Source: Luteimonas endophytica
GTDB taxonomy: Bacteria > Pseudomonadota > Gammaproteobacteria > Xanthomonadales > Xanthomonadaceae
Direction of reading: 5' to 3'
DNA length: 64,000 nucleotides
Assembly: GCF_029887875.1 (NCBI RefSeq)
Contig: NZ_JARXRM010000046.1
Location: 163,438-227,437 of the forward strand
Positions 12,451-19,683 of the stretch are shown here, one piece after another. Made by a program: the position numbers and the translations under genes. The notes beneath the pieces are model-generated. The model was given only the letters and a program-made list of their open reading frames with translations. It did not search any database and was not told where the DNA came from. Numbering within the stretch: position 1 is the stretch's first letter; every line of letters starts with the position of its first letter.

Positions 12451-14601
12451 ATGAGCACGGTTCGTCTGGAGGCGGTGAAGCAGGACCCGGCAACGGAGAT
12501 TCCGATGCAGCCGGCGTCCGCCGACATCTGGGACAAGAAGTACCGCCTCAAGACCAAGCAGGGCGAAGCGGTCGACGCCGACATCGACGGCACCTACCAG
12601 CGCGTGGCCCACGCCCTGGCCGATGCCGAGCCCAACCCGGAGAAGCGCAAGTACTGGTTCGACCGCTTCCTGTGGGCGCTGCGCCGCGGGGCCATCCCCG
12701 CCGGCCGCATCACCTCCAATGCCGGCGCGCTCGAGCACAAGCCGGCCACCAGCACCATCAACTGCACCGTCTCCGGCACCATCGGCGACTCGATGGACGG
12801 CATCCTGGAGAAGGTGCACGAGGCCGGGCTGACCCTGAAGGCCGGCTGCGGCATCGGCTACGAGTTCAGCACCCTGCGCCCCAAGGGCGCGTTCGTGGCC
12901 GGCGCCGGCGCGTACACCTCCGGGCCGATGTCGTTCATGGATATCTACGACAAGATGTGCTTCACCGTGTCCTCCGCCGGCGGCCGCCGCGGCGCGCAGA
13001 TGGGCACCTTCGACATCAGCCACCCCGACGCCAAGGACTTCATCCGCGCCAAGCGCGAGGACGGCCGGCTGCGCCAGTTCAACCTCAGCCTGCTGATCAC
13101 CGACGGCTTCATGGAGGCGGTGGAGAACGACGCCGACTGGCCGCTGGTGTTCCCGATCAGCGACAAGGAGGCCGGCGACGTGGACCTGGCCGATGCCGAC
13201 AAGGTGATCTGGAAGGAGTGGCCGCAGCATGCGGGCTACATCGTCCGCGACGACGGCCTGGTGGCCTGCCGGGTGTACGGCAAGATCCGCGCCCACCACC
13301 TGTGGGACATGATCATGGTCTCGACGTACGACTACGCCGAGCCCGGCTTCATCCTGATCGACCGCGTCAACGAGATGAACAACAACTGGTGGTGCGAGAA
13401 CATCCGCGCCACCAACCCCTGCGGCGAGCAGCCGTTGCCGCCCTACGGCGCCTGCCTGCTGGGCTCGGTGAACCTGACCAAGTTCGTGCGCAACCCCTTC
13501 ACCGACCAGGCCAGCTTCGACTGGGAGGAATACAAGGAAGTGGTGCGCGTGTTCACCCGCATGCTGGACAACGTGGTGGAGATCAACGGCCTGCCCCTGC
13601 AGCAGCAGCGCGACGAGATCATGCGCAAGCGCCGCCACGGCATGGGCTTCCTGGGCCTGGGCAGCACCGCCACCATGCTGAAGATGAAGTACGGCTCCAA
13701 GGAGAGCTGCGCGTTCACCGAGCGGGTGGCCCGCGAGATGGCCGTGGCCGGCTGGGAGATGGGCCTGGCGCTGGCGCAGGAGAAGGGCCCGGCGCCGATC
13801 ATGGAGGAGCGCTTCACCGTGACCGCCGAGATGCTGCGCAAGCGCCCGGAGATGGCCGCCGACGGCTGGAAGGCGGGCCAGGAGATCCCCGGCAAGGTGC
13901 TGCACGCCAAGTACTCGCGCTACATGCAGCAGGTGGCCACGGTGGCCCCCGAGCTGGTGGACGCGCTGGCCGAGACCGGCAGCCGCTTCACCCACCACAG
14001 CTCGATCGCCCCCACCGGCACCATTTCCCTCAGCCTGGCCAACAACGCCAGCAACGGCATCGAGCCCTCGTTCGCCCACCACTACAGCCGCAACGTGATC
14101 CGCGAGGGCAAGAAGAGCAAGGAGAAGGTGGACGTGTTCTCCTTCGAACTCCTGGCCTACCGGCACCTGGTGAACCCCAAGGCCATGCCCTACGCGGACC
14201 AGCCCGAGGCGCAGCTGCCGGACTACTTCATCTCCGCCGACGACATCAGCCCCAAGGAACACGTGGACGTGCAGGCCGCGGCGCAGAAATGGGTGGACAG
14301 CTCCATCTCCAAGACCGCCAACGTGCCCACCGACTACCCGTACGAAGACTTCAAGAGCATCTACACCTACGCCTACCACCAGGGCCTGAAGGGCTGCACC
14401 ACCTTCCGCTTCAACCCGGCCGCCTTCCAGGGCGTGCTGGTCAAGGAGAAGGACCTGGAGAACACCACCTACCGCTTCGAGCTGGAGGACGGCGAAGTGG
14501 TGGAGGTGAAGGGCAACGAGCAGATCGAATACGACGGCGAGGTGCACAGCGCCGCCAACCTGTTCGACGCCCTGAAGGAAGGCTATTACGGCAAGTTCTG
14601 A
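12451..14601 (+). CDS. nrdJa: Adenosylcobalamin-dependent (class II) ribonucleotide reductase, catalytic part NrdJa
   Basis: The 716-residue protein is the catalytic barrel of a class II RNR, which reduces ribonucleotides to deoxyribonucleotides using adenosylcobalamin as radical source. Cys105 (TINCTVSG) and the thiyl-radical Cys324 in TNPCGEQPLPP are visible, along with GFLGLGSTATM and the phosphate-binding APTGTISLS. It lacks the redox-active C-terminal cysteine tail of single-chain enzymes; that part is encoded separately at 15545-16339, as in the NrdJa/NrdJb split of Pseudomonas. Codons are typical for the chromosome. Confidence 0.9.
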   Translation: MSTVRLEAVKQDPATEIPMQPASADIWDKKYRLKTKQGEAVDADIDGTYQRVAHALADAEPNPEKRKYWFDRFLWALRRGAIPAGRITSNAGALEHKPATSTINCTVSGTIGDSMDGILEKVHEAGLTLKAGCGIGYEFSTLRPKGAFVAGAGAYTSGPMSFMDIYDKMCFTVSSAGGRRGAQMGTFDISHPDAKDFIRAKREDGRLRQFNLSLLITDGFMEAVENDADWPLVFPISDKEAGDVDLADADKVIWKEWPQHAGYIVRDDGLVACRVYGKIRAHHLWDMIMVSTYDYAEPGFILIDRVNEMNNNWWCENIRATNPCGEQPLPPYGACLLGSVNLTKFVRNPFTDQASFDWEEYKEVVRVFTRMLDNVVEINGLPLQQQRDEIMRKRRHGMGFLGLGSTATMLKMKYGSKESCAFTERVAREMAVAGWEMGLALAQEKGPAPIMEERFTVTAEMLRKRPEMAADGWKAGQEIPGKVLHAKYSRYMQQVATVAPELVDALAETGSRFTHHSSIAPTGTISLSLANNASNGIEPSFAHHYSRNVIREGKKSKEKVDVFSFELLAYRHLVNPKAMPYADQPEAQLPDYFISADDISPKEHVDVQAAAQKWVDSSISKTANVPTDYPYEDFKSIYTYAYHQGLKGCTTFRFNPAAFQGVLVKEKDLENTTYRFELEDGEVVEVKGNEQIEYDGEVHSAANLFDALKEGYYGKF

Positions 14602-14808
14602 CCCTGGCTCCCCGCTCCCGCGCAGCGGGTGCGGGGCCGGGGCGGGGACGGCCACGCAGCCCCCGCCCGCGGCGAACCCCGTCTCCCGCGCCCGGCAGCG
14701 GGGGTGGGAACCAGAGCCCCCGCCACGCCCCTTGCATACACCGCCCAAACTTCGCGCTACATTCCGCTTCACGGGCAACAGTGCCCGGAACACGACGAGG
14801 AAAACCCG

Positions 14809-15432
14809 ATGAGCAACGGTAACGGAGTGACGGCGACCATCGCCGGTGCGGCCGAGGCTGTGGCCGAGAAGGCGCAGGAGGTCGGCAGCACGGTGGCCGA
14901 GCGCGTGAGCAAGGCGGTGGCCAGCGCGCGCAAGACCGCGAAGAAGGCCGGCAAGACCGTCAGCAAGCGCGTGAGCAAGGCCAAGAAGAGCCTCACCAAG
15001 GCCAAGGCCAGCGCCGCCGCCGAAGGCGCCGCGCTGAAGAAGCAGGGCGCCGGCAAGAAGGCCGCCGCCACCAAGGCCGGCAAGAAGGCCACCCGCAAGG
15101 CGGCCGGCAAGAAGGCCGCGGCCACCCGCGCCAAGAAGGCCGCCAAGCGCTCGGCCGCCGGCAAGAAGGCCGCCGCCACCCGCGCCGCCGGCGCGCGCAA
15201 GGCCACCGCCAAGAAGACCGCCAAGAAGACGGCGAAGAAGGCCGCCAGCAAGAAGACCGCGGCGCGCAAGACCACCGCCAGGAAGGCGCCGGCGAAGAAG
15301 GCCTCGGCCAAGAAGACCGCCGCCCGCAAGGCGCCCGCCAAGAAGGCCGCCGCCCGCAAGGCCCCGGCCAGGAAGGCGGCGGCGAAGAAGGCCGCCCCGC
15401 GCAAGGCCGCCAAGAAGTCCGCAAGCAAGTAA
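14809..15432 (+). CDS. Histone H1-like Lys/Ala-rich nucleoid protein
   Basis: The 207-residue protein has a short N-terminal helix region (AEAVAEKAQEVGSTVAERVS) and then about 150 residues of Lys, Ala and Arg repeats such as KKAAATKAGKK, KTAKKTAKK and RKAPAKKA. This is the composition of bacterial histone H1-like proteins (HctB/AlgP type), which bind and condense DNA without sequence specificity. The repeats are recombination-prone, so length will vary among strains. The gene sits between the two halves of the split reductase. The matching antisense open frame is a composition artefact. Confidence 0.85.
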   Translation: MSNGNGVTATIAGAAEAVAEKAQEVGSTVAERVSKAVASARKTAKKAGKTVSKRVSKAKKSLTKAKASAAAEGAALKKQGAGKKAAATKAGKKATRKAAGKKAAATRAKKAAKRSAAGKKAAATRAAGARKATAKKTAKKTAKKAASKKTAARKTTARKAPAKKASAKKTAARKAPAKKAAARKAPARKAAAKKAAPRKAAKKSASK

Positions 15433-15469: not shown

Positions 15470-15544
15470 TTGGGCCGGGGGCCCGCACACCAACCCCGCC
15501 CGCCATCCCCGTCACCGCCCCACCGCAACCGCAAGAGATCAGCA

Positions 15545-16339
15545 ATGGCCGTCAGGATCGACAAGAAAATCAAGGGCTACGCCGTCGTCACCCCCGAAGA
15601 CAAGGTGAAGGACGTGCCCACCGCCTCCGTGAGCCGCGAAGCCGCCGAAGCGGAACTGGCCGCCGGCGCCGAGGACAACGTCATCCAGATGCACGAGCGC
15701 ATCGAGCGCCCGGAAGTGCTGATCGGCAGCACCTACAAGATCAAGTCCCCGCTGGTGGAGCACGCCATGTACGTGACCATCAACGACATCGTGCTCAACG
15801 CCGGCACCGAGCACGAGCAGCGCCGCCCGTTCGAGATCTTCATCAACTCCAAGTCGATGGAGCACTTCCAGTGGATCGTGGCGCTCACCCGCATCATGAG
15901 CGCCGTGTTCCGCAAGGGCGGCGACGTCACCTTCCTGGTGGAGGAGATGAAGGCCGTGTTCGACCCGCGCGGCGGTTACTTCAAGGCCGGCGGCGTGTAC
16001 ATGCCCAGCCTGGTGGCCGAGCTGGGCAACATCGTCGAGGACCACCTGAAGTCCATCGGCATGATGCACGACCCCGAGATGAGCGACACCACCCGCGCCC
16101 TCATCGCCGAGAAGCGCCGCCAGTTCGAAGCCCAGTCAAAAAAAAACGCTGAAATAAGCGACCGGGCCGCCGCCGCGCCCGAACCCGCCGACGACCACCC
16201 CGAGGACATCGCCGTGACCGGCGAGGGCGCCTCGTTCCCGCCGTCCGCCACCATGTGCCACAAGTGCAGCACCAAGGCCGTGGTGCTGATGGATGGGTGT
16301 GCGACTTGTTTGAATTGTGGGTATTCGAAGTGTGGGTGA
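15545..16339 (+). CDS. nrdJb: Class II ribonucleotide reductase C-terminal component NrdJb
   Basis: The 264-residue protein supplies what NrdJa lacks. It has a TSCPD-type domain (about residues 55-180, with RPFEIFINSKSMEHFQW and GGYFKAGGVYMPSLVAELG) and the redox tail CHKCSTKAVVLMDG then CATCLNCGYSKCG. The tail cysteines rereduce the active site in each turnover. Two oddities: an A9 run at 16138-16146 forms a slippery A_AAA_AAC heptamer in frame with a -1 stop at 16150-16152, and the last 15 or so codons are T-rich (TGT, TTG, AAT) unlike the rest, right at the island border. Confidence 0.88.
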   Translation: MAVRIDKKIKGYAVVTPEDKVKDVPTASVSREAAEAELAAGAEDNVIQMHERIERPEVLIGSTYKIKSPLVEHAMYVTINDIVLNAGTEHEQRRPFEIFINSKSMEHFQWIVALTRIMSAVFRKGGDVTFLVEEMKAVFDPRGGYFKAGGVYMPSLVAELGNIVEDHLKSIGMMHDPEMSDTTRALIAEKRRQFEAQSKKNAEISDRAAAAPEPADDHPEDIAVTGEGASFPPSATMCHKCSTKAVVLMDGCATCLNCGYSKCG

Positions 16340-16348
16340 TAGATTTAC

Positions 16349-17689
16349 ATGAGTGCTAGAAGAGTTCTCGTGAGCTACTCTCACAAGGATGAGCAGCATC
16401 GCGCCGCCCTTGAAGCCGCACTTTCCACTGCAGTAAGACTCGGTGAACTTGAAATTTGGTCTGACCACCGAGTTCTGCCAGGCGAGGAGCTTGACGAAGT
16501 GATCATGTCGCAGCTGAAGACTGCGGACGTAGTGTTGCTATTGATCTCTCCAGACTTCATTGCTTCCGATTACTGCTACACAAAGGAGCTTCGGGTAGCG
16601 CTAGAGAGACACCAGAATAGGCGGGCAGCAGTAGTTCCAATTGTAGTAAGACCTACAGATTGGAGCGGAACCCCATTCGCAAAACTCCTTATGCTGCCAA
16701 TTGATGCCAAAGCCGTGACGGCTTGGTCTGATCCGGATGAAGCATGGCTCAGCGTAGCAAAAGGAATAAGGCGCCTCCTTCGTGATCCTTTCCAAGGGCA
16801 GAGTGAGCGCAACGTCTTTAGCTCAAAAGCGTTGAACCAGCGACTAGCTGATTCTTTTGACAGTTTGGCAACGAGGTTTTCCGAGTCAAAGTATCTTGGC
16901 GACGTGCCGTTTGGCATACCTGCCTTGGATAATCTTACAAACGGACTTGAGAAAGACGAGATGACATTGCTAGCAAGTAGGCCCGAGCACGGACAGGTAG
17001 AACTCGCGCTCGCTGTCGTCTCTTTTCAGGCTTCCATGAAGGACAAGAAAAAGAAATCAATTATACTGAGCCAGCGCTTGAGTGCCACTCAGTATGCGAA
17101 TCGTCTGCTTTGCAGCTTAGGGGTAATATCTCGAGCCCGCTTTAGTCGCGGACAGCTGGAAGAAGAAGATTGGAGTCGAGTGACTTCTGCGGTAAGAATA
17201 CTTAAAGATGCAGACGTTACGATTGACGATGATCCGGTGCGATCAGCGCAAGATCTAATGAACACTTTGGATAGGCTTCGGGGAACCGGCGCAGAGATCT
17301 TAGTGATTGATGGAATTGAATACACGGACAAGGGCGGTCAGGAGCGTGAGATTTCTCTAGCTTTGTCCGATTTTGCTAAACAGGAGAAAGTTGCGGTACT
17401 GATCACCTTGGCTTTGGGGTCTAATTTAGATCTGGGTGCCAATCGGCGCCCTTCCTTGCTTGATATTGGATCCTGGCGTGATCTCGCGGACGTCGCAGGC
17501 AAAGTAATTTTATGTCATCGTGAGTACGAAAATTCTTTGGCGAATTTGAAAGAGGGCATGGGATTATCACGTGAGGTTGAGGTCAGTTTAGTTAAAAGTC
17601 ATGAGGGCGCAAAAGGCAAAGTTGCTCTGAAACTCGACGAAGAAAGTGGCGCTATTTACGACCCGGAAATGTCACATACCGGCGAATAA
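16349..17689 (+). CDS. TIR domain fused to DnaB-like (inactive RecA-fold) domain; candidate antiphage protein
   Basis: Residues 1-140 form a TIR domain: VLVSYSHKDE at the start, WSDHRVLPGEELDE, ADVVLLLISPDFIASDYC and the likely NAD-hydrolysing Glu80 in YTKELRVALE. Residues 180-440 follow the DnaB helicase C-terminal domain: GIPALDNLTNGLEKDEMTLL corresponds to the region before Walker A, ILVIDGIEY to Walker B, and ANRRPSLLDIGSWRDLADVAG to the DnaB RP..DLRESG block. The Walker A position reads RPEHGQVE, without the GKT residues, and the usual SQL sensor is LAL, so ATPase activity is doubtful. Base composition is clearly lower in GC than its neighbours. It starts nine bases after the nrdJb stop with no promoter visible between, using GGTGA as a likely ribosome site. 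Confidence 0.75.
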   Translation: MSARRVLVSYSHKDEQHRAALEAALSTAVRLGELEIWSDHRVLPGEELDEVIMSQLKTADVVLLLISPDFIASDYCYTKELRVALERHQNRRAAVVPIVVRPTDWSGTPFAKLLMLPIDAKAVTAWSDPDEAWLSVAKGIRRLLRDPFQGQSERNVFSSKALNQRLADSFDSLATRFSESKYLGDVPFGIPALDNLTNGLEKDEMTLLASRPEHGQVELALAVVSFQASMKDKKKKSIILSQRLSATQYANRLLCSLGVISRARFSRGQLEEEDWSRVTSAVRILKDADVTIDDDPVRSAQDLMNTLDRLRGTGAEILVIDGIEYTDKGGQEREISLALSDFAKQEKVAVLITLALGSNLDLGANRRPSLLDIGSWRDLADVAGKVILCHREYENSLANLKEGMGLSREVEVSLVKSHEGAKGKVALKLDEESGAIYDPEMSHTGE

Positions 17690-17719: not shown

Positions 17720-18220
17720 TCAGATAGAACGGATGGGCGACTGGTCGCATGGCGGTGGTAGCTCATCAATCGTCCACAGCTGCGCTTCGGGGGCTGGGTC
17801 CGGATGATACTTGGCAGCATCTCGTAGAGCGGCGCGAATTGCCGCGAGAGTGTCGGCAATGCTGCCATCAGCAGGCTCGTGGTTCGGCACTGCATAGGGC
17901 ATGAGGATGTCTGCATGCCCGAGAAATTGTTCTCGACTATCGACGAGTTCCACGTTGGCAGCTAGACACTCTGACGCGATTAGGGCTGCCAGTCCTTTGT
18001 ATCGTGCTTCTGCGCAGTTTCCTATTGAGCGGATCTTGGTCTTCAGCTCTCGCCCATCAGGTATTGTGTAACGCCAACGAATGACCGACAGATCACGACG
18101 CCCCGGCGGAGGCCGGAATGCTGATGGAGTTAGCCTGCTCTCGCTCTTGTTCAGGTGATACGGACTTCGAACAACCCTAACGATCAGCTCGTTCTCATCT
18201 ATTTCGACCGGATAGGGCAC
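17720..18220 (-). CDS. Hypothetical protein, third gene of TIGR04255 operon
   Basis: The 166-residue protein (GTG start) has no motif I recognise. It is mixed alpha/beta by appearance, without signal peptide or membrane segment; notable text includes CAEARYKGLAALIASECLA and a C-terminal LWTIDELPPPCDQ. It begins nine bases after the middle gene and ends only 30 bases from the converging TIR-DnaB stop. Codon use is AT-richer than the chromosome. Confidence 0.6.
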   Translation of the reverse strand: MPYPVEIDENELIVRVVRSPYHLNKSESRLTPSAFRPPPGRRDLSVIRWRYTIPDGRELKTKIRSIGNCAEARYKGLAALIASECLAANVELVDSREQFLGHADILMPYAVPNHEPADGSIADTLAAIRAALRDAAKYHPDPAPEAQLWTIDELPPPCDQSPIRSI

Positions 18221-18229
18221 GCCCGTCCC

Positions 18230-18925
18230 TCAAACTGAAATTTTCGCACCAATTAGGATGTCGTCGCTCCACTCAGACGAAAAATGAATATCCTGCCGCA
18301 TTGATCTCATTGAATCGCTTTCGCAGATAAAACATTCCATAGCCTGCGATAAGCGGTCGGCTTGACGCTGCATGGCTACAGCCGATACAACGCTATCCAT
18401 GAGAGCCATCAGCTCTTCATGGTCACCGCCCGTCCCGCTTAGTTCGCCCCCTTGGGGGCCGGGGATTTTGCTAAAGCGGAATCGTGTCTTACCGATCTCG
18501 AGTTCACACGTGTCGCCAAGAACCTCGAAGAAGATGGAAATCGTACCGTTTGGATTTGGAGAAGTTTCAATCTCAGGCAGGCTCCCCAGGAGCGCAGCTA
18601 CGCGAGAACTCGTCTCAAGTGCCTCTGCGCTCGGTGCCAGGGCTCCTTCCCCGTCCCAGTTCTCTCTAAGCTTGGCAAAGTCTCGCATGCGCGAAAGTAA
18701 CGCGTTTTCTTTAGCTCGACGAGTCGAAGTGGGCGATTGGCGCCACGTGACGAGGTCAGATGCTCGCCTAAGGGGGAAGTACGCAGTTGCAGCTTCTGAA
18801 AAATGGTCGATTGAAAGGGTCTCGAAGGCCGCACTAGGTATGCGGCTGGGGTTGGCTGCAACGATGCTGGAGCCCTTGAAGAAAGAATGCCCTGTTAGGG
18901 TTGGTAACCACGGTGTCGGATTCAC
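18230..18925 (-). CDS. Hypothetical protein with LRENWDGEGA motif, middle gene of TIGR04255 operon
   Basis: The 231-residue protein contains FAKLRENWDGEGALAPSAEA near residue 85, a helix, then PNPNGTISIFFEVLGD and CELEIGKTRFRF. This NWDG-helix-strand pattern recurs in uncharacterised accessory proteins of many bacteria; no enzymatic role is known to me. The GTG start overlaps the upstream stop by four bases (GTGA), so it is translationally coupled to the TIGR04255-type gene. Confidence 0.65.
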   Translation of the reverse strand: MNPTPWLPTLTGHSFFKGSSIVAANPSRIPSAAFETLSIDHFSEAATAYFPLRRASDLVTWRQSPTSTRRAKENALLSRMRDFAKLRENWDGEGALAPSAEALETSSRVAALLGSLPEIETSPNPNGTISIFFEVLGDTCELEIGKTRFRFSKIPGPQGGELSGTGGDHEELMALMDSVVSAVAMQRQADRLSQAMECFICESDSMRSMRQDIHFSSEWSDDILIGAKISV

Positions 18926-19683
18926 GACGAAGGATCTCCTGGAAATCGCTCAATTAGTTCCAAAAATGCGTCGTGCAGTAGCGCCTGGAGCACATCCAGC
19001 TTCTCTAAAATCGATTCGACAGTTTCGGCTCGCAAGCTAGAGCTGGCTGTGGTGTTGAGGATCACAGCATCCGCTTGGTCTTTCTTGCCCGCGCCCGCTT
19101 CGAGTGCGAAGATCGCATCTTCAGCGCAATAAGACTCGGTAGAAAAACGAAGGGTTCTCGGTTCCCGATCAGTGGCCATACATTTTGGCATCGAATAATT
19201 CAGGCCCAATAGGTCCTGAAGAAAGACTGACGGCGTGCGACCAAGTAGCGACTCCCCAGAGAAGGCGTCTACATACTTGAGCGACGCTCGAACGCGTCTG
19301 CCTTTCGTCAAGACGCCGACGGCAAATGCTGCTTCCAGCCCACTTACGACATGGGGCCGGAATGATGTCCAGCTGTCATAGGGCGGGAGTGCGTTCGCTG
19401 TAAACACGTCAGCCCCCAGCTGATAGAGTGTGGGCTCTTCGGCGTTGGGTCTTCTATAGCGGTAGATCACCGCGCCGTGAGGTACAGGGAAGCCAGGAGG
19501 AACGAGGCGCTCTAAGTTTGTATAGCCTTGGTGGCCTACTGCGATGCCGAAAGAGACGAACTTTGCGTCATCCGGCATCGTGAATTGAACTCCTACACCC
19601 TTGCTGGGTGCGCCATCATCTTCCAGACGCACTTCCGCAATGATTTCGACGAGCGGTGGATGGACCAGGAGTGGGTGCGTCAT
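18922..19683 (-). CDS. TIGR04255 family (sporadically distributed) protein
   Basis: The 253-residue protein opens with LLVHPPLVEIIAEVRLE, the PPLVE-type start that defines TIGR04255 proteins, and has the family's central strands (FVSFGIAVGHQGYTNLERL; RVRASLKYVDAFSGE). The family occurs patchily across bacteria, often in accessory islands, and has no established biochemical role. It is the first gene of a three-gene operon running toward 17720. Confidence 0.7.
   Translation of the reverse strand: MTHPLLVHPPLVEIIAEVRLEDDGAPSKGVGVQFTMPDDAKFVSFGIAVGHQGYTNLERLVPPGFPVPHGAVIYRYRRPNAEEPTLYQLGADVFTANALPPYDSWTSFRPHVVSGLEAAFAVGVLTKGRRVRASLKYVDAFSGESLLGRTPSVFLQDLLGLNYSMPKCMATDREPRTLRFSTESYCAEDAIFALEAGAGKKDQADAVILNTTASSSLRAETVESILEKLDVLQALLHDAFLELIERFPGDPSS

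Follow-up and report, generated by a model that had tools for sequence, protein, structure and literature searches.

Plant NLR receptors with integrated decoys are immune proteins that carry a look-alike of the host target of a pathogen. In bacteria, TIR effectors with a fused sensor are known, and what triggers bacterial TIR effectors is a recurring open question. According to excerpts of its description (PMC12162218), Cat1, a CARF-TIR protein associated with CRISPR, has an NADase site lined by residues that include E74, and this active site forms between two TIR domains upon assembly. As to the replicative helicase, an excerpt of PMC6391071 places the linker helix (LH) of E. coli DnaB at residues 182-202 and reports that this helix and helix 291-302 participate in the binding of lambda P. 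In the portion of PMC9912922 available, the module made of LH and docking helix (DH) is described as being bound by DciA and DnaC too, and as forming the contact of the DnaB ring, in which LH of one protomer meets DH of the next.

Here we describe a protein encoded in the window (the whole stretch of Luteimonas endophytica DNA that was analysed, 64,000 nucleotides long), in which a TIR domain is fused to a DnaB-like domain. With respect to the known TIR effectors, the pseudo-DnaB sensor is new. No TIR-DnaB architecture was found in open-licence PMC papers, a body of literature from which subscription papers and preprints mostly fall outside, in agreement with the preliminary description, which had recognised no named defence system of this kind. 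Excerpts of PMC7824862 and PMC10952713 mention TIR systems and no TIR-DnaB fusion. PMC12111858 is unrelated, its excerpt being concerned with an ATPase-TOPRIM protein.

Anatomy of the fusion protein

The features of the locus are collected in Table 1. The gene has a GC content of 0.49 (0.47 at third positions), as compared to 0.69 for the window. Both domain assignments are far beyond chance, since both matches exceed the Pfam curated cut-offs; that of the DnaB C-terminal RecA-like domain scored 107 bits with a cut-off of 27. The open reading frame and the TIR and DnaB-like folds proposed in the preliminary description are therefore confirmed, and the TIR-pseudo-DnaB fusion is real.

Table 1. 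Positions of the features of the TIR-pseudo-DnaB locus in the window.
Feature	Position	Strand	Remark
Ribonucleotide reductase gene, upstream	12451-14601		
TSCPD-domain gene	15470..16339	+	stop 9 bases before the TIR-DnaB start
TIR-pseudo-DnaB gene	16349..17689	+	ATG start, intact ORF, 446 aa
TIR domain, residues 6-112	16364..16684	+	Pfam TIR_2, E=9.1e-16
Putative catalytic Glu80 codon	16586..16588	+	sequence alignment
Linker helix (LH), residues 161-181, corresponding to about 182-202 of E. coli DnaB	16829..16891	+	
DnaB_C-like domain, residues 186-432	16904..17644	+	Pfam DnaB_C, E=1.2e-30
Degenerate Walker A RPEHGQVE, residues 211-218	16979..17002	+	Q216 and V217 replace Lys and Thr
R243 replacing the catalytic Glu (E241 of 2r6a)	17075..17077	+	alignment
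Docking helix region (DH), residues 268-286	17150..17206	+	alignment
Walker B ILVID	17297..17311	+	Asp321 retained
Site of the ssDNA-binding loop RESG, GSWR in this protein (374-377)	17468..17479	+	W376 replaces Ser
H418 replacing the Arg finger R420	17600..17602	+	alignment
TIGR04255 family protein	18922-19683	-	E=1.1e-14; 4-base overlap with the gene at 18230-18925

Five further full-length relatives were found, in Luteimonas (49% identity), another Lysobacterales genome (46%), Burkholderiales (35%), Accumulibacter (33%) and Geobacter (31%); the nearest one comes from a genome of the same genus as the window. In what follows, the Lysobacteraceae trio is the window protein, L003 and L032, and L033, L034 and L035 are the Burkholderiales, Geobacter and Accumulibacter proteins, respectively.

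The nearest PDB match of the TIR half was Cat1 (E=5.4e-4). S11, H12, D39, S73 and E80 aligned with S7, H8, D33, S68 and E74 of Cat1, and N9 and N10 of Cat1 were replaced by K13 and D14. The glutamate equivalent to E80 was present in all six fusion proteins and in 22 TIR-only sequences aligned alongside, so that the view of Glu80 as the likely catalytic residue gained support from both its alignment with E74 and its conservation. Because the active-site residues of Cat1 are matched and the glutamate is invariant, the TIR half likely cleaves NAD+. In PADLOC, the TIR was matched best by the ThsB1 model PDLC00420 (E=4.4e-50, residues 6-148), which would suit a TIR that signals through cyclic ADP-ribose to a distinct effector encoded at another place in the genome, as in Thoeris; on the NCBIfam Thoeris model ThcB4 the protein scored 21.5 bits with respect to a cut-off of 220. 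However, no ThsA-like gene was recognised among the neighbour genes scanned with Pfam, PADLOC and NCBIfam, and we consider a signalling role of this type most unlikely.

The alignment with the solved DnaB 2r6a begins at the linker helix (residue 159 of the query), so that the TIR occupies the place of the DnaB collar; among the Pfam hits of the window protein there was no match to the collar domain, the TIR being found there instead. With the DnaB equivalog model TIGR00665 the protein scored 103 bits, as compared to a cut-off of 385. Walker A reads SRPEHGQVE where 2r6a has ARPSVGKTA, and E241, Q362 and R420 of 2r6a are changed to R243, A355 and H418, so that the catalytic glutamate, the Walker A lysine and threonine (Q216/V217 here) and the arginine finger that mark a DnaB are all missing. 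The Walker B aspartate (D321) and K418 (as K416) are retained. The preliminary description had noted both the altered sensor residues and the preserved Walker B, and these observations hold.

In the family as a whole, the catalytic glutamate is replaced in all six fusion proteins, by arginine in five and by lysine in one. The serine of the RESG loop is replaced by tryptophan in 6/6 according to the MAFFT alignment and in 5/5 according to the HMM alignment, in which L035 is unaligned at that place; R381, E382 and G384 of 2r6a are part of the ssDNA contact. In 80 distinct ordinary DnaBs from phages and hosts, the glutamate (E241), the serine (S383), the glutamine (Q362) and the arginine finger (R420) were each present in 80/80. 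L033 and L034 retain GKT, the glutamine and the arginine finger, the other four are without GKT, and the Walker B aspartate is kept in all six. The six sequences thus form a natural series, with the nucleotide site intact in two and not in four and the catalytic glutamate replaced in all. The loss of Walker A reported earlier is correct for the window protein, whose ATPase appears dead by its residues, but the loss of lysine and threonine is not general, and as a hallmark of the family it was rejected because two of the six keep GKT. At the residue level, these changes show a DnaB-like domain that should be unable to hydrolyse ATP or to grip ssDNA in the usual way. The earlier suggestion that the domain senses forked or single-stranded DNA in the manner of DnaB is not supported, since none of the six has an unaltered RESG loop.

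Conservation of the docking helix

The core of the docking helix (residues 272-283) corresponds to residues 291-302 of E. coli DnaB, and W275 to W294; the equivalent of Trp294 is retained in all six fusion proteins. When each protein was compared to the DnaB of its own genome, 15 of the 19 DH residues were identical in the window protein and in L003, 14 in L032, L033 and L034, and 9 in L035, and identity outside DH was 28, 29, 33, 42, 36 and 29% (window protein, L003, L032, L033, L034 and L035). In five of the six, DH is therefore 74-79% identical as compared to 28-42% elsewhere, L035 being the exception. Fisher p-values for DH vs. the remainder were 1.7e-5, 2.3e-5, 7.5e-4, 0.015, 0.0023 and 0.12 in the same order, and are partly post hoc because attention turned to the docking helix once its tryptophan had been seen to be invariant. 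The ratio of DH to outside identity, each protein being measured against its own lineage, was 2.94, 2.50, 2.51, 1.66, 1.91 and 0.91, respectively. True DnaBs (n=144), measured against the Lysobacteraceae consensus, gave a median ratio of 0.80 and a maximum of 1.46. In fact, across true DnaB lineages the docking helix is less conserved than the remainder, and within one lineage true DnaBs share 73-92% in DH and 81-91% in the rest. For the 12-residue core, delimited just as in PMC6391071, 0-5 of 241-262 windows scored higher in the window protein, L003, L032, L033 and L034, and those windows overlap the helix; in L035, 3 of the 12 core residues match the lineage consensus and 87 of 196 windows scored higher. 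This result indicates an inverted conservation profile in the pseudo-DnaBs, a new observation, in which the docking helix is the best kept part. The preliminary description had tied the DnaB part to replication proteins and helicase loading, and its least-changed segment is indeed the loader-docking helix.

The 19 DH residues were also compared to the consensus of Lysobacteraceae, other Gammaproteobacteria, Betaproteobacteria and Desulfuromonadia DnaBs. In this order, 16, 12, 10 and 7 residues matched in the window protein, 14, 10, 7 and 5 in L003, 15, 9, 8 and 6 in L032, 8, 12, 14 and 10 in L033, 9, 11, 12 and 14 in L034, and 6, 6, 5 and 5 in L035. From these counts, five of the six docking helices fit their own lineage best. 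LH shows a weaker form of this match, with 30-56% identity to the own lineage in the fusions; LH of true DnaBs shares 17% (viral) and 14% (Betaproteobacteria and Desulfuromonadia) with the Lysobacteraceae consensus. Over the whole domain minus the activity columns, the own lineage was nearest in 6/6, and in 4/6 when LH and DH were removed as well, so that a host match confined to LH-DH was rejected. The pooled contrast was 102:27 vs. 181:96 (p=0.005); in this comparison a position may be counted as many as three times, and L035 shows the opposite trend. A match to the DnaB of the very species was also rejected, since the own-genome DnaB ranks among the best without always coming first in its lineage. 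Recent gene conversion from the host dnaB was discarded too: 36 of the 57 DH bases are equal, and the docking helix is not a recent DNA copy because only 4 of the 15 shared residues use the codon of the host dnaB. Either descent from the host dnaB with strong constraint on the helix or selection for mimicry would give the lineage match.

The phylogenetic trees were flagged for long branches. In the tree built on all columns the six fusions form one group (97/94), a grouping that may reflect their shared activity changes. In the 47-row tree without the activity columns, L034 joined the DnaBs of Desulfuromonadia (98/97), the trio fell near those of Lysobacteraceae (80/85), and L033 with L035 stood apart (88/93). 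A smaller tree without those columns put L033 and L035 with Betaproteobacteria DnaBs (84/100), which is not so in the 47-row tree. A single origin of the six was not rejected without the activity columns (AU p 0.255 and 0.264); one origin is also compatible with the TIR halves (p 0.537). A firm claim of several independent origins was set aside, considering that the all-column tree gives one group, that the placement of L033 and L035 is unstable and that branches are long. As the six are not one group in the trees without the activity columns, the same inactivation (Glu to Arg or Lys, and Ser of RESG to Trp) may have originated repeatedly.

Since LH-DH also holds the DnaB ring together, its retention may serve assembly rather than the attraction of a partner. 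The pseudo-DnaB might join or watch the host DnaB ring through LH-DH, the ring itself being the bait, and remodelling or replacement of the ring by a phage might free or cluster the TIRs. The kept module is a subunit contact as well as a loader site according to the excerpt of PMC9912922, and it matches the sequence of the host lineage; but the trio has lost the ring contacts other than LH-DH (28-33% identity to the same-genome DnaB outside DH), and a dead subunit in the host ring is expected to harm replication, which makes this arrangement rather unlikely. We regard as no less unlikely that the dead domain is scaffold only, forming a ring or stack of its own that holds the TIRs, with another trigger such as a nucleotide, a DNA end or a phage protein unrelated to DnaB. 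TIR enzymes can be switched on by assembly, as an excerpt on Cat1 (PMC12162218) indicates, LH and DH are conserved together, and the Walker B aspartate is kept in 6/6; however, the match of DH to the host lineage would be unexplained, unless each gene descends from a host dnaB with the helix most constrained.

Distribution and genomic context

A scan of 84,980 species genomes was built on two peptide patterns, which would miss members that do not carry them. Among the best 80 of the 115 confirmed loci and 12 other loci that were checked, the DnaB half was present in just the five relatives above. Direct genome search found the gene in 2/52 genomes of the genus, 3/395 of the family and 1/369 of the class, the last being the window's own. 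Sampling around the other members gave 1/244 for Geobacter, 1/399 for Burkholderiales and 1/316 for Accumulibacter, in each case the member itself (E<=1e-78). The TIR-pseudo-DnaB family is rare, yet it spans two phyla (Pseudomonadota and Thermodesulfobacteriota).

Close-relative scans of genomes and viral contigs with the window protein alone confirmed no relative. With the alignment as query, viral contigs gave 65 loci, all with matches from residue 134 or later (DnaB only), and 5 TIR-only loci. At 80% coverage, the window protein matched 0/942 plasmid and 0/235 phage records and L034 matched 0/1275 plasmid records; with L034, 1/1082 phage records matched, covering residues 62-437 at 25% identity, and with L033, 3/1295 plasmid records matched, one of them an annotated dnaB covering 60-440.

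L033 carries an extra C-terminal DUF3775 (L033:2225-2437, residues 507-577 of 582, E=1.5e-13) that is absent from the other five. A related TIR (about 40-50% identical) is widespread, joined to a C-terminal portion of some 150-170 aa whose first residues are RSSNLR or similar; such proteins occur in Pseudomonas, Halomonas, Rhizobium, Methylobacterium and others (L049, L052-L053, L055-L058, L060, L063-L064 and many up to L110). In Nostoc and related cyanobacteria (L036-L043, L045, L048 and others) the same kind of TIR has a predicted coiled-coil-like tail, and the match extends over about 1.2 kb, which points to a second related stretch further downstream.

In three Lysobacteraceae genomes the TIR-DnaB gene comes directly after the same TSCPD-domain gene, at a distance of 9 (window), 4 (G044) and 3 (G111) bases. 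Between the reductase and TSCPD genes lies a very Lys/Ala-rich ORF (14629-15432, +), histone H1-like in look; similar ORFs occupy the same place in L003 (2594-3145, -) and L007 (3709-4224, -). The TSCPD gene was found in 43 of the 52 genus genomes, and the region downstream was taken in 40 of these (the window's own, G044 and G014 were left out). In 26 of the 40, the next 2 kb had a GC content of at most 0.62. The longest ORF starting within 2 kb was obtained in 25 of these 26 (one had none) and analysed with PADLOC in 25/25 and with Pfam in 10/25, where 3 of the 10 gave no Pfam hit. L197 encodes a CBASS-type cyclase (PADLOC E=6.7e-112, with a Pfam SMODS match under its cut-off), and L209 and L231 encode AAA_15/AAA_21 proteins; in PADLOC, two members that it does not name match the GajA, Old and AriA models, so that OLD/Gabija-like genes are among the cargo. 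Other cargo of the spot includes GASH in L233, a STAND-like AAA_16 in L208, DUF6119 in L198 and a ParA-like ATPase in L202, and G016 has a related TIR gene some 4 kb past the TSCPD gene. We read the region behind the TSCPD gene in this genus as a defence hotspot. L203 (G016:C17) and L211 (G024:C20) share a near-equal gene pair (239 and 245 aa) behind different first genes, which suggests modular exchange of cargo.

In the window, three low-GC genes at 17720-19683 (-) are convergent with the TIR-DnaB gene and are possibly a separate cargo cassette; of these, neither 18230-18925 nor 17720-18220 (both -) matched any family of Pfam, PADLOC or NCBIfam.

Members outside Lysobacteraceae sit at other places: L034 is flanked by a PIN-domain gene and a nickel-insertion gene, L033 follows a methionine-synthase-domain gene and has a GNAT gene nearby, and for L035 another TIR protein is encoded about 2 kb away. 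The preliminary description would have been refuted by homologues in housekeeping contexts only. This is not the case at the Lysobacteraceae spot, where defence genes occur (not as immediate neighbours), but the nearest neighbours of L033 and L034 are housekeeping and PIN/GNAT-type genes.

It is very unlikely, in our opinion, that the gene has no part in defence and instead regulates the ribonucleotide-reductase operon, travels with it as a passenger or is in decay. Its start close behind the TSCPD gene in three genomes, the housekeeping neighbours of L033 and L034, and the eroded look of L035, with its short C-terminus and a docking helix that is not retained, would agree with such a view. 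However, the gene is sparse even within the genus and the family and low in GC, its reading frames are open at 45-49% identity with the TIR site retained, and other genomes carry other cargo at the same spot.

A possible anti-phage guard and its relation to known systems

The reading that we favour, tentatively and at somewhat less than an even chance, is that of a single-gene TIR anti-phage guard in which a look-alike of the host DnaB serves as bait. In this putative mechanism the N-terminal TIR would be the effector, acting by cleavage of NAD+; it replaces the DnaB collar, and after it come the linker helix and the dead DnaB C-terminal domain. The retained host-type LH-DH module, chiefly the docking helix, corresponds to the site of DciA, DnaC and lambda P on DnaB. 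A phage helicase loader or a DnaB-hijacking protein could mistake the look-alike for the host DnaB, and binding of this partner would act as trigger, causing a rearrangement or oligomerisation that brings the TIR domains together. The clustered TIRs would then deplete NAD+ and lead to abortive infection. We consider a guard with bait the simplest mechanism because it makes use of a live TIR, a dead motor, a lost grip on ssDNA and a kept local handle for loaders. Against the bait stand L035, which is without the docking helix, and the lambda P-proximal residues outside LH and DH, which are poorly kept in the trio (20-29%, as compared to 61% in L033). The glycine of L032 where DciA-type DnaBs carry serine, and the rarity of the gene, also speak against it.

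A more specific proposal, which we advance with some doubt and from sequence comparison, is that the protein may be a bacterial integrated decoy, i.e. a dead helicase replica re-tuned per host lineage, through which a DnaB-hijacking phage would bring about NAD+ depletion. What defines a decoy, namely that the targeted host surface is kept and the activity lost, is seen for the docking helix in 5/6 and for the activity in 6/6, L035 lacking the helix. The sensor half points to the loader-docking site of the helicase as an answer to the question of what triggers TIR effectors, and at least one phage loader is known to use this site, as cellular loaders do. If the proposal is true, bacteria deploy decoys of their own essential proteins, as plant receptors are thought to.

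Among the known systems, Cat1 resembles the window protein in its TIR fold, as judged by sequence, and in the matched active-site residues S7, H8, D33, S68 and E74; however, its sensor is a CARF domain, whereas the one described here is a pseudo-DnaB, and no CRISPR gene was recognised adjoining it. The TIR half matches the PADLOC model of Thoeris ThsB1, but unlike ThsB it is fused to DnaB, with no ThsA partner recognised beside the gene. DnaB itself is homologous along residues 160-432, with LH, the docking helix and the Walker B aspartate in common; the fusions differ in having a TIR instead of the collar domain, in the replacement of the catalytic glutamate and the RESG serine in 6/6, and in the loss of Walker A in 4/6. 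Finally, the likeness to plant NLR integrated decoys would be one of working principle only, as both combine a look-alike of a host target with the same class of effector domain, whereas the bacterial protein is a single polypeptide without NB-ARC and with a putative trigger.
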